Assembly (NCBI GenBank): GCA_013215775.1
Contig: JABSQO010000004.1
Location: forward strand, 62,001-126,000
Direction: 5' to 3'
Origin: Piscirickettsiaceae bacterium
GTDB taxonomy: Bacteria > Pseudomonadota > Gammaproteobacteria > Nitrosococcales > Methylophagaceae
DNA: 64,000 nucleotides
In this document: one piece after another, positions 4,141-64,000 of the stretch
Position numbering within the stretch: position 1 is the stretch's first letter
How the letters are laid out: each line of letters starts with the position of its first letter
Notes under the pieces: generated by a model
The model's database searches: none
The model's input: only the letters and a program-made list of their open reading frames with translations
What the model was told of the DNA's origin: nothing
Translations under genes and position numbers: made by a program

Positions 4141-4329
4141 TATCTTTACATGATTCGTCTTTTTCACCATAACTGTGTTAATAAAGCATCTCAAAATACT
4201 CATTTACTATAGTAAACTGCGCTTTTTCGGTGTTTTTCGCCTTGTTATGATAAAAAATACTTTCATGAAAATAGATTACAATAATTTAATGTTTAATCGT
4301 CGTGAAAACGGCAATAATGGAGAATAACA

Positions 4330-4716
4330 ATGGCGCGTGAAATTATTCACACATCAAAAGCACCAGAAGCAATCGGAACATATTCACAGGCGGTGAAAGT
4401 CGGAGATGTGGTGTACATGTCTGGTCAAATTCCACTGGTTCCTGAAACAATGACGGTGATTGAAGGTGATTTTTCAACCCAAGTGCGTCGAGTGTTTGAT
4501 AATTTATCGGCAGTCGCAGAGGCGGCTGGTGGTAATTTACAGAATATTGTTAAGTTAAATATTTTCTTAACTGATCTTAGCCACTTCGGAACTGTTAATG
4601 AAGTTATGGCTGAATATTTTCAGCAACCTTACCCTGCTCGTGCAGCAATTGGTGTTGCTTCTTTACCCAAAGAGGTACCCGTTGAAATGGATGCAATAAT
4701 GGATTTAAGTGCGTAG
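4330..4716 (+). CDS. ridA: RidA family 2-iminopropanoate deaminase
   Basis: This 128-residue trimeric enzyme hydrolyses reactive enamine/imine intermediates such as 2-aminoacrylate made by PLP dehydratases. It shows the family start ([16 protein letters not shown]), SGQIPLVP, the RVFDNL helix and [13 protein letters not shown], which carries the conserved active-site arginine. A GGAG precedes the ATG. The 189-base gap after spoT is AT-rich with no clear terminator or consensus promoter that I can defend. The position between spoT and recG matches Xanthomonas- and Pseudomonas-like orders. The substrate-producing threonine dehydratase lies at 48206-49720. Confidence 0.95.
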
Positions 4717-4747
4717 CTAAGAATCACCTACATTAAGGTAATAGGCT

Positions 4748-6838
4748 GTGAGCAATAAAATGATGTTGTCGGAGCCTGTTACCTCATTAAAAGGTGTTGG
4801 TAGTAAGGTTGCAGAGCGGTTGCAAAAATTGGGCATTACCCAGGTTCAAGACCTCTTATTTCACTTGCCATTACGCTATCAAGATCGCACGCGATTATTA
4901 CCGTTAGGCAGTCTTAGAACTCATCAAGAATGCCTAGTTGAAGGTACAGTAAAACTAAGCCAAATCAAATTTGGCCGTCGCCGATCATTACTTTGTTATA
5001 TTGAAGATGGCACTGGCTCATTAGTCCTGCGGTTTTTTCATTTTTCTAAGGTACAACAACAGCAATTATCTCAGGGTGTTCGTGTACGTTGTTTTGGTGA
5101 GGTGAGATCAGGGCCGTCATCATTAGAGATGGTGCATCCTGAATATCAGATCATTGCTGACGGTAGTATCGCTTCGGTTGATGTTGATTTAACACCCGTT
5201 TATCCCACTACAGAAGGCATACATCAGATAGGCTTTCGTAAGTTAATTAGCCAAGCATTAGTTTATCTTGACGATGAGCAAACCTTACCTGAATTATTAC
5301 CTGATAGCGCACGATTGCATGAAGCTGCTCATTATTCATTAGTAGAGGCATTGAAGTTTGTTCATAAACCACCACCTGAAGTGGATGTGCAATTATTACT
5401 AGAACGCCGGCACCCAACACAAAGACGATTAGCGTTTGAAGAGTTGTTAGCTCAACAACTAAGTATGAGGAAATTAAGAGCACGTACTCAACAGCATCAA
5501 GCTCCAATACTAAAAGGGGATGGCCAACATCGGCAAGCTTTATTGAATCATCTTCCCTTCCCTCTAACGGGAGCACAACAGCGCGTTATAAATGAAATTT
5601 TGACCGATATAAGCCAAACGATACCGATGCAACGTTTGGTGCAAGGTGATGTTGGATCTGGAAAGACAGTAGTTGCGGCAATGGCAGTGTTAGAAGCAGT
5701 CTCTGCTGGTTATCAAGCGGTGATGATGGCGCCTACAGAATTATTAGCAGAACAACATTATCAGACATTTAAAACATGGTTAGATCCATTAGGAATTCAA
5801 CTAGGTTGGTGTGCAGGAAAACAGACAGCATCTGAGCGAAGGAAAGTGCTTACAGAGTTGAGTGAAGGAACTATTCAGGTTGCAGTCGGTACCCATGCCT
5901 TATTTCAAGATGAAGTTGTTTTTAATAATCTTGGATTGGTGGTGATTGATGAGCAGCATCGTTTTGGAGTGCATCAACGATTAGCACTACGAGATAAAGG
6001 CCGCCATGCAGATAGCTTTCCTCATCAATTAGTGATGACCGCGACACCTATCCCTCGAACATTAGCAATGACAGCTTATGCTGATTTGAATGTATCGGTG
6101 ATCGATGAGTTGCCACCAGGTCGGAGTCCAGTGACGACTGTCGTCATTCCGAATACGCGTCGTAATGATATTGTTCAACGAGTACATGTTGCTTGCCAAG
6201 AAAAGAGGCAAGTATATTGGGTTTGTACCTTGATTGAAGAATCAGAACATTTACAATGTCAGGCAGCCGAGGATGCGGCGACAGAATTACAACAAGCGTT
6301 ACCCGATTGTCGTATTGCACTGGTTCATGGTCGAATGAAATCGGTTCAAAAAGAACAAGTAATGCAAGCGTTTAAAGAAGGAAATATAGATTTATTGGTG
6401 GCGACCACCGTGATAGAAGTCGGGGTAGATGTACCGAATGCCAGTTTGATGGTAATAGAAAATGCTGAACGTTTAGGTTTAGCTCAATTACATCAATTAC
6501 GTGGGCGGGTAGGGCGAGGTAGTGTACAAAGTCATTGTGTGTTGATGTATCGCGCACCTTTATCTGAAAATGGCCAATCACGATTGAGTTGCATGCGTGA
6601 TACTAATGATGGATTTGAAATTGCCCAGCGTGATTTAGAATTACGCGGCCCCGGGGAGTTATTAGGAACAAGGCAAACGGGATTACCTCAATTTAGAGTG
6701 GCTAATGTGATGGAAGATCAAGATTTGATTAATATCATGCCGCAAGCCGCCGATAAATTCTTAGCCGAGGCACCTGAAAACAATGACGCTTTGATAGCAA
6801 GATGGTTTGGACATAAAATTGATTTTGGACATGTATAG
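4748..6838 (+). CDS. recG: ATP-dependent DNA helicase RecG
   Basis: This branch-migration helicase processes stalled replication forks and recombination intermediates. The 696-residue product is of normal length. It has an N-terminal wedge/OB region (from SLKGVGSKVAERLQKLG), Walker A GDVGSGKT near residues 300-307, DEQH near 400, TATPIPRTLAMT, and motif VI HQLRGRVGRG near 580. The GTG at 4748 follows AAGG about 10 bases upstream; an ATG at 4760 is an alternative. It is followed by ubiC after 16 bases. Confidence 0.97.
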   Translation: MSNKMMLSEPVTSLKGVGSKVAERLQKLGITQVQDLLFHLPLRYQDRTRLLPLGSLRTHQECLVEGTVKLSQIKFGRRRSLLCYIEDGTGSLVLRFFHFSKVQQQQLSQGVRVRCFGEVRSGPSSLEMVHPEYQIIADGSIASVDVDLTPVYPTTEGIHQIGFRKLISQALVYLDDEQTLPELLPDSARLHEAAHYSLVEALKFVHKPPPEVDVQLLLERRHPTQRRLAFEELLAQQLSMRKLRARTQQHQAPILKGDGQHRQALLNHLPFPLTGAQQRVINEILTDISQTIPMQRLVQGDVGSGKTVVAAMAVLEAVSAGYQAVMMAPTELLAEQHYQTFKTWLDPLGIQLGWCAGKQTASERRKVLTELSEGTIQVAVGTHALFQDEVVFNNLGLVVIDEQHRFGVHQRLALRDKGRHADSFPHQLVMTATPIPRTLAMTAYADLNVSVIDELPPGRSPVTTVVIPNTRRNDIVQRVHVACQEKRQVYWVCTLIEESEHLQCQAAEDAATELQQALPDCRIALVHGRMKSVQKEQVMQAFKEGNIDLLVATTVIEVGVDVPNASLMVIENAERLGLAQLHQLRGRVGRGSVQSHCVLMYRAPLSENGQSRLSCMRDTNDGFEIAQRDLELRGPGELLGTRQTGLPQFRVANVMEDQDLINIMPQAADKFLAEAPENNDALIARWFGHKIDFGHV

Positions 6839-6854
6839 AGAGATAGCGTATTAA

Positions 6855-7391
6855 ATGAAATATTGGACACGTTGGCATACGCCACAAAGACGTTTAATGC
6901 CTGCTAAATTAGTATCATGGTTAACCGATGTGGATTCACTGACTAGGCGATTACAACAGCATAATCAATATGATTTTTCTGTACAGTTATTGAGCAATAG
7001 TTGGATAAAACCATTAACGGATGAATGTCAGTGTTTGAATGTGTCTAATACGGCTCTGGCTTATCAACGAGAAGTGCGATTAATGGATGGTGGTGTAGCG
7101 AATGTTTATGCTCGAACAATTGTACCGAGAGATACCTTTATGGTGATGCCCAGCCGGTTTAATAATCTGGGAAATAAATCATTAGGTGAGCTATTGTTTA
7201 CCGATCCATCAGTCAAACGAGGTCCGATAGAAGTGGCGTGTTTAAAGCCGGGTCAGTGGTTATATGAAATGGCAGTATTAGATGAAACATATCGTCCAGA
7301 TGAATTGTGGGGAAGACGTTCACATTTTTATTTGGGCGGCAAAAAACTGCTCGTTAATGAGATATTTTTGCCGACTTTGGAGTGGGATTAA
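6855..7391 (+). CDS. ubiC: Chorismate lyase
   Basis: The enzyme converts chorismate to 4-hydroxybenzoate and pyruvate, the first committed step of ubiquinone synthesis. The 178-residue product carries the REVRLMDGG segment with the substrate-binding arginine, [11 protein letters not shown], and the C-terminal [21 protein letters not shown] with the catalytic glutamate. It directly precedes ubiA, which uses its product. The ubiCA pair downstream of recG is probably one transcriptional unit. Confidence 0.95.
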
Positions 7392-7393
7392 CA

Positions 7394-8260
7394 GTGCAAA
7401 GCATGACAGCGTCATTCAAGCCATATATAGAATTAATGCGTTTAGATAGGCCAATTGGTATTTTATTATTGTTGTGGCCGACATTAGCTGCATTATGGAT
7501 TGCAGCGGAAGGTATCCCTGATCTGACGGTATTAACGGTATTTGTCTTAGGTGTGATTATTATGCGCAGTGCGGGCTGTGTGATTAATGACTATGCTGAT
7601 AGAGATATTGATGGATTAGTGAGCAGAACAGAAAATCGCCCTTTAGCCATTGGCTCTGTTTCACCTCGCAGTGCATTGTTATTGTTTTCTGGATTAGGAA
7701 TATTAGCATTTTATTTGGTATTAAAACTCAATACCCTGACGATTTTAATGTCGATAGTGGGGCTGATATTAGCGGTAAGCTATCCATTCATGAAGCGTTA
7801 CACTTATTTACCTCAAGTCTATTTAGGTATGGCATTTGGATGGGCAATCCCCATGGCCTTTGCAGCTCAAACCAATACCGTTCCTGTCATCGGATGGTTA
7901 TTGTTTTTAGCCAATATCATGTGGGCAACGGCTTATGATACGTTTTATGCCATGGCTGACCGTGAAGATGATTTATTGGCTGGTGTGAAATCCACAGCGA
8001 TTTTGTTTGGTGAAGATGACAAAATTATTATAGGTATTTTACAACTCGGTTTCCTAATTGTGATGCTATTGATCGGTGGTCAATTAGCAATGGGATTTAT
8101 TTACTATATTGGTGTTTTGATTGCAGCAGGATTATCGGTTTATCAGCAAAAATTAACGGCAGATAGGGAGCCGGCACAGTGCTTGCGAGCATTCTTGAAC
8201 AATAATTGGGTGGGAGCTGCGTTGTTTATCGGTATCGTCTTACATTATGGATTAGGCTGA
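7394..8260 (+). CDS. ubiA: 4-hydroxybenzoate octaprenyltransferase
   Basis: This inner-membrane prenyltransferase attaches the polyprenyl tail to 4-hydroxybenzoate. It has many hydrophobic segments and both Asp-rich motifs, [10 protein letters not shown] in the first half and [13 protein letters not shown] in the second, which bind Mg-diphosphate. The GTG at 7394 has GGGA 6 bases upstream and gives 288 residues, close to E. coli (290). Starts at 7382 (GTG, overlapping ubiC) or 7403 (ATG) are possible. It forms a pathway pair with ubiC. Confidence 0.95.
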
Positions 8261-8282
8261 TGTTGCATACTAGTCTACAAGA

Positions 8283-8990
8283 ATGGCGATGAGCGAAGAC
8301 AGGGATAACCAAAAGATTAGAGAAACTTACAGTGCGATTTTTCGACAATGTGTCAGCTTAAATACAGAATTATATAAGTTAGCCCCACTAGCGAAACAGA
8401 TACATTTATTGTCATCAAATGCAGTAAGTTCAGCCGCAAGGGCAGGCAGTGAAGGTGATGCCTTTCGTGTTTTAGCCCAAGACATCCAACTGCTGGGAGA
8501 AGATGTATCTCATTGCGTTAATGATACTCAGCAAGTCATTAGTGAAATTGTCATGTTATCGTCAAAATTTTCTAAATTATTTGAACATTTCACGATATAC
8601 AACAAGTTGGTGAATCATACTAATTTTGAGAATCAAGACATTGATGTGAAAACATCATTAAAACTATCTGAAAAACCACAGAAAAAAATAGCAGAAGAAA
8701 TTATTACCAATAATCATAAATTAACGCGATATCTGGGGCAGTTGAGTAATTTAATGTCACCGTTAGTGATGTTAGTTAAGAAAGGAGAATATCTTGCTGT
8801 CTTTTCTTCTGTAGAAGCAGCGAGTGTTGGTGAGCATGGCACTAGTTTTGAAGCTATTTCAGCAATGTTACGAGAATTGGTAGGTCAGCTTGGCATTCAG
8901 TCTGGTCGCCAACGTTTGATACTGCGAGATCTGACAGAGTTGATGGAAAAACAACAGAATATTCTGAGGAATATGCTTTATACGCACTGA
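8283..8990 (+). CDS. Soluble chemoreceptor-like signalling protein
   Basis: The 235-residue protein has no membrane segment or signal peptide and is almost entirely helical with many heptads. Residues about 38-66 (QIHLLSSNAVSSAARAGSEG, then AFRVLAQDIQLLG) resemble the hairpin tip of methyl-accepting chemotaxis proteins. The rest lacks a recognisable ligand-binding or HAMP domain. The gene directly precedes a remnant of a di-iron oxygen-binding protein, a family known to pair with chemoreceptors. It may have lost its sensory partner. It could instead be an unrelated coiled-coil protein; the hairpin resemblance is by eye. Confidence 0.6.
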   Translation: MAMSEDRDNQKIRETYSAIFRQCVSLNTELYKLAPLAKQIHLLSSNAVSSAARAGSEGDAFRVLAQDIQLLGEDVSHCVNDTQQVISEIVMLSSKFSKLFEHFTIYNKLVNHTNFENQDIDVKTSLKLSEKPQKKIAEEIITNNHKLTRYLGQLSNLMSPLVMLVKKGEYLAVFSSVEAASVGEHGTSFEAISAMLRELVGQLGIQSGRQRLILRDLTELMEKQQNILRNMLYTH

Positions 8991-9153
8991 ACGCCTTTAT
9001 AAAAAAAATAACCATAGCTGGTTAACGCTTATACGTGATGTTGACATGTTATGTCCTCAACATGGTGCGATATTTAAAGGTGAAGATGTCGAGCGATTTT
9101 TAGCATGGTTTGAAAATTTATATGTTGGTTCGGACTGGTCTAGTGTGCATTAA
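8968..9153 (+). pseudogene. C-terminal remnant of an ODP/FprA-type metallo-beta-lactamase-fold di-iron protein
   Basis: A frame open from 8968 to the TAA at 9151-9153 has no plausible start and overlaps the 3' end of the upstream gene in another frame. From about 9013 it reads HSWLTLIRDVDMLCPQHGAI, then FKGEDVERFLAWFENL. This is the C-terminal signature of oxygen-binding di-iron proteins, where the His of P-x-HG is the last iron ligand. Intact members are about 250 residues, so some 200 N-terminal residues are gone. I infer a deletion that fused the end of the chemoreceptor-like gene to this stump. Recognition is from memory of the family. Confidence 0.7.
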
Positions 9154-9190: not shown

Positions 9191-10024
9191 ATGAAGGGAA
9201 TACTCAATGGATTGATGTTAATTGGCCTGCTAATACAGGCTGATTTTTTGATTGCCGATATTTTTCGAAGTGAAGATGAACAAGGCAATGTCAGCTTCTC
9301 TGATCAGCCATCATCTAATGCGACTACTGTAAACTCAACGGTTAAAAGCTATCGTTACAAATATCATATTGCAACGGTCTATGATGGTGATACAGTCGTT
9401 TTGACGAATGGCGAAAAACTTCGCTTATTGGGGATTAATACACCAGAGATTGAAAGTCGTTATCGACAAGGTGAAGCGGGCGGTCAAGCTGCAAAAAAAT
9501 GGCTAAAAGATAAGTTGCAGCAAGCAGAAGTATTGGTTGAATATGATAGTCAGCAGCGAGATAAATATAATCGATTATTAGTGCATTTATTTTTACCGAG
9601 TGGCGAACATATCAATGAATCTATAGTTAGAGAGGGTTTAGCGACACTGAGTATTATTCCTCCTAATCTCCGCTATGTTGAAAGACTTATAAAAGCTGAG
9701 CGTGAAGCTCAACAATATGGCTTAGGTATTTGGTCTAGATCAGAATATCAACCCATATCCGTGACAACATTATCAAAGCCACAAAGACCTTCTGGTTGGC
9801 AGCGTTTTTTAGCGATGCCTAATAGAATAAAGATTGCTCGAAAGTATGTGTATTTAATACTTAGCAAAGATGTCGATATCCGTATTCCTAAAGAGAACTT
9901 AGATTTATTCCCCGAGTTAGAACTTTATCTTGGAGAAGAATTAGAAGTACGTGGGTGGGCATCACGTAATAAAGAACATTATTCAATATTAGTGCGACAT
10001 CCTAGTGCCATCATTTTTCTTTAG
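9191..10024 (+). CDS. Secreted thermonuclease (SNase) with N-terminal DUF4124-like segment
   Basis: The 277-residue protein has an N-terminal signal peptide (about residues 1-22). A short DUF4124-like strand follows (IFRSEDEQGNVSFSDQPS). Then comes a staphylococcal-nuclease domain (about 58-185) with VYDGDTVVL, LRLLGINTPEIES and DKYNRLLVHLFL carrying the acidic and arginine residues expected in the active site. A C-terminal stretch of about 90 residues has OB-like character (LELYLGEELEVRGWASR). It probably degrades extracellular or periplasmic nucleic acid. It converges with and overlaps the next gene by 14 bases. Confidence 0.85.
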   Translation: MKGILNGLMLIGLLIQADFLIADIFRSEDEQGNVSFSDQPSSNATTVNSTVKSYRYKYHIATVYDGDTVVLTNGEKLRLLGINTPEIESRYRQGEAGGQAAKKWLKDKLQQAEVLVEYDSQQRDKYNRLLVHLFLPSGEHINESIVREGLATLSIIPPNLRYVERLIKAEREAQQYGLGIWSRSEYQPISVTTLSKPQRPSGWQRFLAMPNRIKIARKYVYLILSKDVDIRIPKENLDLFPELELYLGEELEVRGWASRNKEHYSILVRHPSAIIFL

Positions 10025-61153: not shown

Positions 61154-61630
61154 CTAGAAATTGGACAAGTCAGGTTTTTCTTCTTCGATGAGAAATTTGT
61201 CAACATCAACTAAGATTAATAAATTATCATCTCGGCTGTGGACACCTTGGATAAATCGAGAACCATCATTACTACTCACACTTGGTGCTGTTTCAATCTC
61301 AGATTGATGTAAATAAACCACCTCAGCAACACTATCCACTAACATACCTAATACATTATCATTAACCTCAACGACAATAATTCGTGCTGATTCATTGGGT
61401 TCTTTAGATATCAAGCCGAAGCGCCGGCGTGTATCAATAACAGTAACGACATTACCTCGCAAATTAATAATACCCAACACGTAGTTAGGTGCGCCGGGTA
61501 CCGGTGCGATTTCAGTTATACGGAGTACTTCTTGTACTTGCATAACATTAATACCATAGACTTCACTATCTAAATGAAAGGTCACCCACTGCAGTACAGG
61601 ATCGTTATCTATATTGTCTTGTTGACTCAT
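61154..61630 (-). CDS. cheW: Chemotaxis adaptor CheW
   Basis: CheW bridges chemoreceptors and CheA kinase. The 158-residue product has VTFHLDSEVYGINVMQVQEV, NYVLGIINLRGNVVTVIDTR and GMLVDSVAEVVYL, the standard CheW motifs. The ATG at 61630 has AAGGA 6 bases upstream; a start at 61648 adds six residues and seems less likely. It belongs to the polar-flagellum chemotaxis operon with cheB, motC and motD. Confidence 0.95.
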   Translation of the reverse strand: MSQQDNIDNDPVLQWVTFHLDSEVYGINVMQVQEVLRITEIAPVPGAPNYVLGIINLRGNVVTVIDTRRRFGLISKEPNESARIIVVEVNDNVLGMLVDSVAEVVYLHQSEIETAPSVSSNDGSRFIQGVHSRDDNLLILVDVDKFLIEEEKPDLSNF

Positions 61631-61744
61631 GTTTGTCCTTGACATCATTTTTCCTAATACGACTACACAATGTTTAGGTCAAAATACTGACGGATAATAT
61701 TATTGAGAGAATATGCACGGTTTATGCCATCATTACACAGAGTT

Positions 61745-62635
61745 CTAATTAGGCTTCTGTGTAGGTGCAGGCCTTACTATAGGTGATTCTGTTGCTTGAT
61801 ATGGTTGTTCAGAGGTAGTAGAAGATTCGCCAAAAACTTCTAAAGAACGTCGACTCTCTTTCTTGCCAAGAACGACTAATACAACACGACGATTTTTCTG
61901 ACGCCCTTCTTCAGTGTTATTATCTGCAATAGGTTGAAATTCTCCATAACCAATAGCTGACATGCGACTTGGTTTAACACCATAGCGATCAAGTAAATGA
62001 ACCACACTTGCAGCACGTGCTGCTGATAGTTCCCAATTAGAAGGGAATTTAGGCGTGTTTATAGGATTATTATCTGTAAATCCTTCAACTTGTATTGGAT
62101 TAGCGGAGGTATTGAGAATATTGGCTACTTTACCAATGACTGGAATAGCACTATTTCCTAAGCGTGAATCACCGCTCTCGAATAGTACTTTAGATTTAAT
62201 TTCTAACTCTAACCAGTCTTCTCCTTTTTTAATAATCACATCTTCATCCTCGATGAGATCGGATAATGCTTCATCAAGTAATCGAGAGATACTATCGATT
62301 GTTTGAATTGTTTCTTCAGGAATGGGTGGAGTGATAGGGAGTTCTATAGGAGGCAATTCCAATATATTTTGCGAAGGATCTGACGCGCCTGGTTCAGGTG
62401 AAAGCTCGCCTTGGCCTCGACTAAGTTTACCTACTTGAATTGGGTTTAGGCTGCGAGGGTTATCCCTAAACACTGCTCCTAAGGTATCTGATAGAACACG
62501 ATATTTACCTTCATTAACTGATGAAATGGAGTACATAACAACGAAGAAGGCAAAAAGTAGCGTAATGAAGTCGGCATAGGATACGAGCCATCGTTCATGG
62601 TTTACATGTTCTTCTATTTTTTTTCTACGAGGCAT
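61745..62635 (-). CDS. motD: Flagellar motor stator protein MotD (MotB homologue)
   Basis: The 296-residue protein has a single membrane helix with the proton-binding Asp in WLVSYADFITLLFAFFVVMY near residue 22. A Pro-rich linker follows, then an OmpA-like peptidoglycan-binding domain with VEGFTDNNPINTPKFPSNWE and LSAARAASVV. It anchors the MotCD stator to the wall. The motC gene lies 17 bases upstream on the same strand. Confidence 0.94.
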   Translation of the reverse strand: MPRRKKIEEHVNHERWLVSYADFITLLFAFFVVMYSISSVNEGKYRVLSDTLGAVFRDNPRSLNPIQVGKLSRGQGELSPEPGASDPSQNILELPPIELPITPPIPEETIQTIDSISRLLDEALSDLIEDEDVIIKKGEDWLELEIKSKVLFESGDSRLGNSAIPVIGKVANILNTSANPIQVEGFTDNNPINTPKFPSNWELSAARAASVVHLLDRYGVKPSRMSAIGYGEFQPIADNNTEEGRQKNRRVVLVVLGKKESRRSLEVFGESSTTSEQPYQATESPIVRPAPTQKPN

Positions 62636-62652
62636 AAATTAAATGTTAATGA

Positions 62653-63393
62653 TCAGTTTAAATAGGCTTGTAAACGGCTTTCAATATTACGAGGATTATC
62701 ACCTTCTGCGACACTGACAAGTCCATCTACTAACATCATTTGTATTCGGGAGCGATGAGAAACAACTGATTTGAGTTTATTGCCAACAGGAAGAAATAAT
62801 AGATTTGCTAAGACGACACCATATATTGTGGCAACAAAGGCAACGGCGATTCCTGAACCCAGTGCGGAGGGATCGGCAAGATTTCCCATGACATGAATTA
62901 ACCCCATTACAGCACCAATAATACCGATAGTAGGTGAATAACCTCCCATAGCTTCAAATACTTTTGCTGATTCCATATCATTGTGCTCTTGTAGATCAAG
63001 ATCTGTTTCCATTATCTCCCGAATAATTTCGGGTTCAGCACCATCTGCAATAAGTTGTAATCCTTTTTGAGTGAATAAATCTTGCTCATCAAGCGCAATA
63101 GATTCAAGTCGAATTAGGCCTTCTTTACGGGCAATTCCACTCCATTCCAGTATTTTATCTAAGGTGATTTTTGCTGATGCCGGAGGAGGGATGAAAACCC
63201 ATACTAGCATCCGTAGAGCGCGTAAAAATGTATTAAGGGGGGTCTGAACCATAACAGCACCTAATGTACCGCCCATAACAATAAGAAAAGCGACAGAATT
63301 GAGTAGCGTACCGATATGGCCACCTTCGAGGTGTTGGCCACCTAGGATGGCACCGAAACCAACGATTAACCCTACAATACTCAGAATATCCAT
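62653..63393 (-). CDS. motC: Flagellar motor stator protein MotC (MotA homologue)
   Basis: The 246-residue protein has four membrane helices in two pairs. MDILSIVGLIVGFGAILGGQ is at the N terminus, and EAMGGYSPTIGIIGAVMGLI with AFVATIYGVVLANLLFLPVG lie in the second half, as in MotA/PomA. The cytoplasmic loop holds charged residues for rotor contact. Together with MotD it forms a second stator type known from Pseudomonas swarming. It is 2 bases from cheB. Confidence 0.94.
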   Translation of the reverse strand: MDILSIVGLIVGFGAILGGQHLEGGHIGTLLNSVAFLIVMGGTLGAVMVQTPLNTFLRALRMLVWVFIPPPASAKITLDKILEWSGIARKEGLIRLESIALDEQDLFTQKGLQLIADGAEPEIIREIMETDLDLQEHNDMESAKVFEAMGGYSPTIGIIGAVMGLIHVMGNLADPSALGSGIAVAFVATIYGVVLANLLFLPVGNKLKSVVSHRSRIQMMLVDGLVSVAEGDNPRNIESRLQAYLN

Positions 63394-63395
63394 AC

Positions 63396-64000
63396 TTATT
63401 TTATTTCCGCTAGCTGTTGGCCAATATCAGTCAAACTGAGAATTCTATCAGCTAACCGAGCTTTGGCAATTGCCATAGGCATGCCGTAGATGGTACTACT
63501 TTGCTCATCTTGAGACCAGATCGTAGCGCCTAATTGTTTCAATGTTTGGCAGCCTTGTTTTCCATCACTACCCATCCCCGTCAAAATAATTGCTAAAGTG
63601 TCTGCCGGAAATATCTGAGCAACTGAATTTAAGGTGATATCAATGCTTGGGTGGTAGGTTTGATCGGGTTGACTGTCCTGAAGTTTGATTTGAGGACGAT
63701 TTTTACTGTTGGATATCAGCATTTGCTTGCCTCCTGGGGCAAGATAGGCAGTGCCTGGCGTTAATACATCTCCATCATCGGCTTGTTTAATGTTGATAGC
63801 ACACTGAGTATTTAATCGTTCAGCAAATGATGGTGTAAATGCAGCGGGCATATGTTGAATGATTAAAATAGGGTGAGGGAAGTTTGCAGGTAATTGAGAA
63901 AGTACTTTTTGTAAAGCGACGGGACCGCCCGTTGACGTTCCAATGGCAACTAATTTAATAGGGTTGGTCGTTGCCGTATTTTGTGTTGATATAATCTTGT
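63396..64000 (-). CDS. cheB: Chemotaxis protein-glutamate methylesterase CheB, C-terminal part (partial)
   Basis: The leftward frame enters at the window edge and ends at 63396. It shows the CheB methylesterase domain: catalytic Ser in LVAIGTSTGGPVALQKVL, the His in LIIQHMPAAFTPSFAERL, and the Asp in LTGMGSDGKQG. The N-terminal receiver domain lies outside the window. CheB demethylates chemoreceptors for adaptation and follows cheA in this operon type. Confidence 0.95.
   Translation of the reverse strand, partial: KIISTQNTATTNPIKLVAIGTSTGGPVALQKVLSQLPANFPHPILIIQHMPAAFTPSFAERLNTQCAINIKQADDGDVLTPGTAYLAPGGKQMLISNSKNRPQIKLQDSQPDQTYHPSIDITLNSVAQIFPADTLAIILTGMGSDGKQGCQTLKQLGATIWSQDEQSSTIYGMPMAIAKARLADRILSLTDIGQQLAEIK

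Follow-up and report, generated by a model that had tools for sequence, protein, structure and literature searches.

The window, a stretch of 64,000 nucleotides, belongs to a 2.22 Mb draft genome (G000; 48 contigs, 99.8% complete). The locus lies on the forward strand and begins with a ubiC-like gene (chorismate lyase, 6855–7391) and a ubiA-like gene (4-hydroxybenzoate polyprenyltransferase, 7382–8260). These are followed by a gene for a small chemoreceptor-like protein (mini-receptor, 8283–8990), the remains of a gene for an oxygen-binding di-iron protein (ODP, 8980–9153) and a gene for a staphylococcal-nuclease-like secreted protein (9191–10024), which bounds the locus in relatives too. The conserved order in related genomes is ubiC, ubiA, receptor, ODP and nuclease, with the two ubi genes arranged in the same way in loci L002–L020 and L034–L040. 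The named relatives are Methylophaga sp. and metagenome-assembled genomes (MAGs) of Methylophagaceae and Piscirickettsiaceae, and the window most probably comes from the same family. The mini-receptor comprises 235 amino acids, is predicted to be a soluble single-chain four-helix bundle and is 46–65% identical to its orthologues, whose starts indicate that the true start may be the ATG at 8289 rather than 8283.

An intact receptor–ODP pair, which the initial annotation proposed to look for in relatives, was found in the family: an ODP gene occupies this site in 15 genomes, complete in 14 (247–248 amino acids); in the fifteenth, G019, its 5′ end is interrupted or mis-assembled. The relatives' protein belongs to the ODP family beta-lactamases (PF19583, E = 1e-72; solved ODP structures, E = 5e-69), with ligand positions H75, D77, H139 and D161 invariant and H219 nearly so. 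The di-iron metallo-beta-lactamase domain is common to ODP and the FprA/flavorubredoxin flavo-di-iron proteins (weak match to 4dik/1vme); unlike FprA, the relatives' protein has no flavodoxin domain, and its sequence falls clearly among the ODPs. In most relatives the ODP ATG lies inside the 3′ end of the receptor gene, giving an 11-nt overlap (ATGCGCGTTGA), a layout typical of translational coupling.

Remains of the ODP gene

In the window, the codon at the position of the ODP start (8980–8982) is ATA, where relatives have ATG. An N-terminal remnant extends from it to a deletion junction (8980–9039; 14 codons certain, up to 20), and a C-terminal remnant of about 37–45 codons (DVDMLCPQHGAIFKG...SSVH, stop) with the His ligand of the CPQHG motif occupies 9037–9153. 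Both were recovered in the TBLASTN check with ODP that had been suggested for the stump, the former over residues 1–22 (55% identity, E = 1.8e-7) and the latter over residues 202–247 (76% identity, E = 5.7e-24). The frame also matches solved ODP structures over its last ~42 residues (6qrq, E = 8e-10; 6qnm, E = 4.9e-6). A search with Pfam and NCBIfam gave no useful match, so the homology of the stump rests on the phmmer search of the PDB and on the alignment with relatives; the full-length ODP at the same gene position in these relatives makes it more than a chance likeness.

The frame after the receptor is open for 61 codons, and the window's version of ODP amounts to 57 codons reading IRTERLYKKNNHSWLTLIRD-VDMLCPQHGAIFKGEDVERFLAWFENLYVGSDWSSVH, in which the first 14–20 ODP codons are fused to the last 37–45. 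The net in-frame loss is 191 of 248 codons. Of the metal ligands, only the His of CPQHG survives. The metallo-beta-lactamase core is gone, and the copy is a remnant with no match to PF19583, the family of 6qrq, 6qnm and the relatives' proteins. The initial annotation had described the stump as the last ~60 codons of an ODP/FprA-type protein that had lost most of its sequence. The homology and the extent of the loss are borne out, but the stump is a fusion of both ends, and its start codon has been replaced. The junction is ambiguous between TGG and CGTGATG motifs, of which relatives have similar copies on either side; a deletion between short repeats is plausible. On the sequence, with the start codon lost and 191 codons missing in frame, the ODP gene is dead. 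A genome search found no second ODP in G000, from which PF19583 is absent.

It is very unlikely that these lesions are assembly or binning errors and that the real genome carries an intact ODP. The genome is a draft in 48 contigs, but the start substitution and the in-frame deletion are two independent lesions at a distance of 40–60 nt, the remnants are not identical to any relative's sequence, the neighbouring genes are intact, and ODP is absent at the same locus in other species too. A 57-codon product still translated by coupling and having its own function is barely credible. The open frame of 61 codons and the well-conserved C-terminal part speak for such a product; against it, ATA stands in the start position and translation from the first in-frame ATG would give ~35 amino acids, a single metal ligand is left, the metallo-beta-lactamase core has gone, no Pfam family is matched, and the low divergence of the remnant fits a recent loss, with most likely ~4% of the branch unconstrained (upper limit ~26%).

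Two divided tips in one chain

The protein encoded at 8283–8990 matches Pfam MCPsignal (PF00015) in two stretches with E = 6.7e-12 and 46 bits, against a curated cut-off of 34.6; the mini-receptor of a relative (L003) scores 51 bits, and both halves of the relatives' proteins are picked up by this family. Its best solved sequence relatives are cytoplasmic signalling domains of methyl-accepting chemotaxis proteins (MCPs; 2ch7, E = 1.8e-5). The MCP-tip-like hairpin reported in the initial annotation is thus supported as regards MCP homology; the hairpins, however, number two (residues ~35–75 and ~160–205). The two-tip, single-chain nature of the receptor, which was missing from that description, was revealed by an alignment of 62 homologues together with a match between the tip profiles.

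In tip 1 (residues 35–75, 8385–8507, forward strand), the residues corresponding to Tsr N381 (N46, 62/62 homologues), R388 (R53, 58/62) and G390 (G55, 62/62) are retained, and residue 50, at the E385 position, is Glu in none of the 62. Tip 2 (residues 160–205, 8760–8897, forward strand) keeps the E385 equivalent (E178) in all 62; position 174, corresponding to N381, is Asn in only 7 of them and position 181, corresponding to R388, is Arg in 15. N46, G55 and E178 are the only residues invariant across the whole set. The numbers N381, E385, R388 and G390 follow Tsr, and the match to the MCP tip motif is unambiguous. Tip 1 and tip 2 also match each other as profiles, shifted by a constant +128 positions (probability 95%, E = 2.2e-8). 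In the canonical MCPs found in the same loci, N, E and R occur together in one hairpin (11/11), whereas the mini-receptor has N and R in tip 1 and E in tip 2.

The AlphaFold2 model of the window protein (pLDDT 93, pTM 0.85) consists of four helices, at residues 2–53, 55–116, 123–181 and 186–233, and that of a Vibrio homologue with ~16% identity likewise has four long helices (pLDDT 91). The tip-to-tip match and this prediction together describe two receptor hairpins that form a four-helix bundle in one chain. The order and lengths of the predicted helices, only ~50–60 residues each, imply an up-down bundle with both tips at the same end. Among the natural structures matched by Foldseek are the MCP 2ch7 and, with an rmsd of 1.6 over 97 columns, the E. 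coli core-unit receptor 6s1k_E. By E-value these MCP matches are weak (E > 0.001), which is common with helical bundles, and designed bundles obtain better scores. With VIA-align, designed bundles and unrelated helical proteins rank at the top, and no MCP signalling domain is among the best 50 listed, which speaks neither for nor against an MCP fold. Judging from the model, the bundle would imitate one receptor dimer.

Natural single-chain MCP-like proteins have been noted before, with function unknown (PMC4692393). The mini-receptor resembles them in carrying two receptor hairpins in one polypeptide as a dimer-like unit. It differs in being much shorter (~50–60 residues per helix), in its diverged halves that divide the contact residues between them, and in its consistent ODP partner; engineered single-chain versions have two near-identical halves. 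It appears to represent a widespread, little-described kind of receptor, with both halves of the tip of a normal receptor dimer packed into one chain. Conventional mutants are unable to resolve the separate roles of the inner and outer subunits at the receptor tip (PMC4692393), and mini-receptors provide natural material for this question.

The residue split suggests that one half possibly sits at the inner and the other at the outer position of the trimer tip. A fuller proposal, which is tentative and to which we give somewhat less than even weight, is that the hairpins are specialised for the inner versus outer positions of the trimer of dimers (the N381/R388 side versus the E385 side), so that the protein would be a natural asymmetric "dimer" wired to ODP as a dedicated soluble input for O2 or iron; after ODP loss it could persist as a trimmed, sensor-free array component, as in Methylophaga. 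The split-tip single-chain architecture and the repeated orphaning of the receptor are candidate new points, while the coupling of ODP to a receptor is already known.

The receptor–ODP pair in other bacteria

The distribution of the pair was surveyed with an ODP alignment against one genome per species, and the best 80 loci were taken. A mini-receptor lies directly upstream of ODP on the same strand in 78 of these 80 loci (one, in L124, is a fragment), and the hosts include Vibrio, Shewanella, Pseudoalteromonas, Oceanospirillum, Legionella and others. The two loci without a recognised mini-receptor upstream are L100 and L104; in L104, the protein in this place, which has ~275 amino acids as observed in L140, may be a strongly diverged mini-receptor. 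Locus L136 (Methylomicrobium sp. RS1) has two ODP-like frames, 4280–5119 and 7944–8729, only the second of which is directly behind a mini-receptor.

The spirochaete sample contains two types of pair. In the first, a mini-receptor is followed by ODP (L141, L145, L146, L154); in the second, ODP adjoins an MCP of ~290 amino acids with one canonical tip and usually comes first (L147, L148, L150, L152). The two types agree with the published observation of two different gene orders in operons that combine ODP and MCP genes (PMC7319448). In Treponema denticola, ODP (TDE2498) is genetically coupled to the cytoplasmic MCP homologue TDE2496, a receptor with neither transmembrane nor sensing modules that modulates CheA activity; the order of CheA in the arrays is influenced by ODP (PMC7666581). 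This precedent and the 78 paired loci bear out the earlier statement that such proteins partner chemoreceptors in other bacteria. Like TDE2498/TDE2496, the family's module pairs a di-iron ODP with a soluble MCP homologue. By its gene order and by the spirochaete loci of the second type, TDE2496 appears to belong to the one-tip type of ~290 amino acids, usually encoded downstream of ODP. The module described here differs from that type in that the receptor comes first and carries two split tips in a chain of ~205–240 amino acids, and the window's copy is without ODP. Most of what has been worked out on ODP-linked oxygen taxis comes from a spirochaete, and in most of the sampled ODP loci the receptor is a compact single chain whose halves bear different trimer-contact residues.

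In the intact module, the di-iron site of ODP would bind O2 or iron, and by touching the mini-receptor ODP would then alter CheA activity in a receptor array, by analogy with what is reported for the Treponema ODP. The mini-receptor would stand in for one receptor dimer, with two hairpins in one chain, the tips pointing the same way and the trimer-contact residues divided between the halves. By its homology to MCPs, it may contact CheA and CheW.

Genome G000 encodes flagellins, two CheA, CheW proteins and three other MCPs. It is chemotaxis-competent on paper, and by its gene content there should be arrays for an orphaned receptor to join. Near the right end of the window, the minus strand (61154–63851) carries genes for CheW (61154–61648), a MotB-like protein (61745–62635), a MotA-like protein (62653–63393) and the C-terminal part of a CheB-like protein (63396–63851), all named by eye from their translations; a CheA gene lies just beyond the end of the window.

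Flagellar output of the pair is not assured, since one relative (G009, a 99% complete genome with an intact pair in locus L004) keeps it although neither a flagellin nor a CheA dimerisation domain was found there. That genome has a Pil-Chp-type CheA (C47) and a CheV-like protein, and its pair may signal to twitching motility. The combination lends some weight to an alternative in which the mini-receptor is a helical ODP adaptor outside CheA/CheW arrays with another output, e.g., Pil-Chp or c-di-GMP; such an adaptor would also agree with a protein too short for the usual methylation region, each half of which lacks part of the canonical tip. We consider this improbable: the residues kept across the 62 homologues are the equivalents of receptor-tip N381, R388, G390 and E385, the sensor-less ODP partner of T. 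denticola modulates CheA (PMC7666581), and one pair closes a complete che operon. In the latter case (L033, G023:C39:30500–50400), a divergent second mini-receptor and its ODP end the operon, after cheY, cheA, cheW, an MCP gene, cheR, cheD and cheB. The L033 mini-receptor is identical at 196 of 205 positions to that of L134 (MAG CSMAG_207), G023 is listed with 6% contamination, and the L033 contig may be a binning contaminant.

The receptor after ODP loss

Our preferred reading, which we regard as probable, is that the locus is what remains of a two-gene chemotaxis module sensing O2 or iron, with ODP inactivated, the receptor orphaned and its constraint beginning to loosen, as in related lineages without ODP. 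In the window's lineage, loss of the ODP start and of 191 codons, with the receptor frame intact, would have left the receptor orphaned.

A tree built from the UbiC, UbiA and nuclease proteins, with weak support at its deep nodes, places at least five separate losses of ODP in the family: in the window's lineage, in the G006/G001/G007 group, in G002, in the G003/G012/G010/G016/G013 group and in Methylophaga proper. This count rests on ODP-bearing lineages or well-supported stems separating the groups, and on ODP having been lost, not regained, where the site is unchanged. G001 retains an ODP pseudogene containing stops, and a small search gave a weak trace for G006 (E = 0.002), with nothing convincing in the other ODP-less loci. 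The receptor itself is a pseudogene in G001, G007 and G013. Repeated loss of ODP, followed by decay or retention of the orphan, represents a natural experiment on the purpose of a sensorless receptor.

Selection on the receptor, the dN/dS of which the initial annotation proposed to examine, was estimated with a branch-specific codon model. The omega values are approximate, as synonymous divergence is high and the foreground fits re-optimised only the foreground branch lengths and omegas; with this reservation, the pooled ODP-less terminal branches of the window's genus have an omega of 0.170 versus 0.079 elsewhere (p = 2.3e-5), a shift that ubiA and ubiC do not show on these branches. For the window branch by itself, the rise is not significant (0.125 versus 0.083, p = 0.15), and neutrality over the whole of this branch is strongly rejected for the mini-receptor, so that the receptor may still have a function. 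The check thus reveals relaxation in the pooled lineages but no significant relaxation in the window's copy by itself. The share of the window branch that may have been neutral is ~5% for the receptor (limit ~14%) and ~4–5% for the stump (a broad limit of ~26%). The loss of ODP on this lineage is, by these sequence estimates, probably recent, and for this reason the intact frame of the receptor says little about its present use. The window mini-receptor carries 8 private substitutions at otherwise invariant columns, compared with 0–2 in most ODP-bearing lineages (5 in G021).

The initial annotation left the choice between a receptor that is orphaned and one that uses another input. The first part stands, as G000 has no other ODP; there is no sign of another input in the window, whose copy is compatible with neutral drift after the loss and looks freshly orphaned. 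Both fates occur in the family, with the receptor under selection in the sister genus Methylophaga and mostly relaxed or broken in the window's genus. Co-option instead of decay, in which the receptor would do without ODP and either work through a different sensor protein or modulate the array constitutively, is unlikely for the window's copy, if far from negligible. The intact frame would agree with it, as would the ODP-less G006, whose omega (0.102) is not significantly raised, and the strong selection on the Methylophaga receptor. The 8 private changes at invariant columns argue for decay, as do the lack of a new partner gene at the window's locus and the ODP-less clade G003/G012/G010/G016/G013, in which relaxation, loss of the tip motif or a pseudogene is seen.

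In Methylophaga, the orphan mini-receptor has an omega of 0.076, compared with 0.058 for ubiA, and omega = 1 is rejected (2ΔlnL ~449). Judged by these values, it is plainly under strong purifying selection. It is kept, trimmed to ~150–165 amino acids, in 10 of the 24 sampled genomes (L161–L170), and ODP is absent from all ten. The trimming seems to have removed the tip-distal end; our guess is that ODP may dock at this end.
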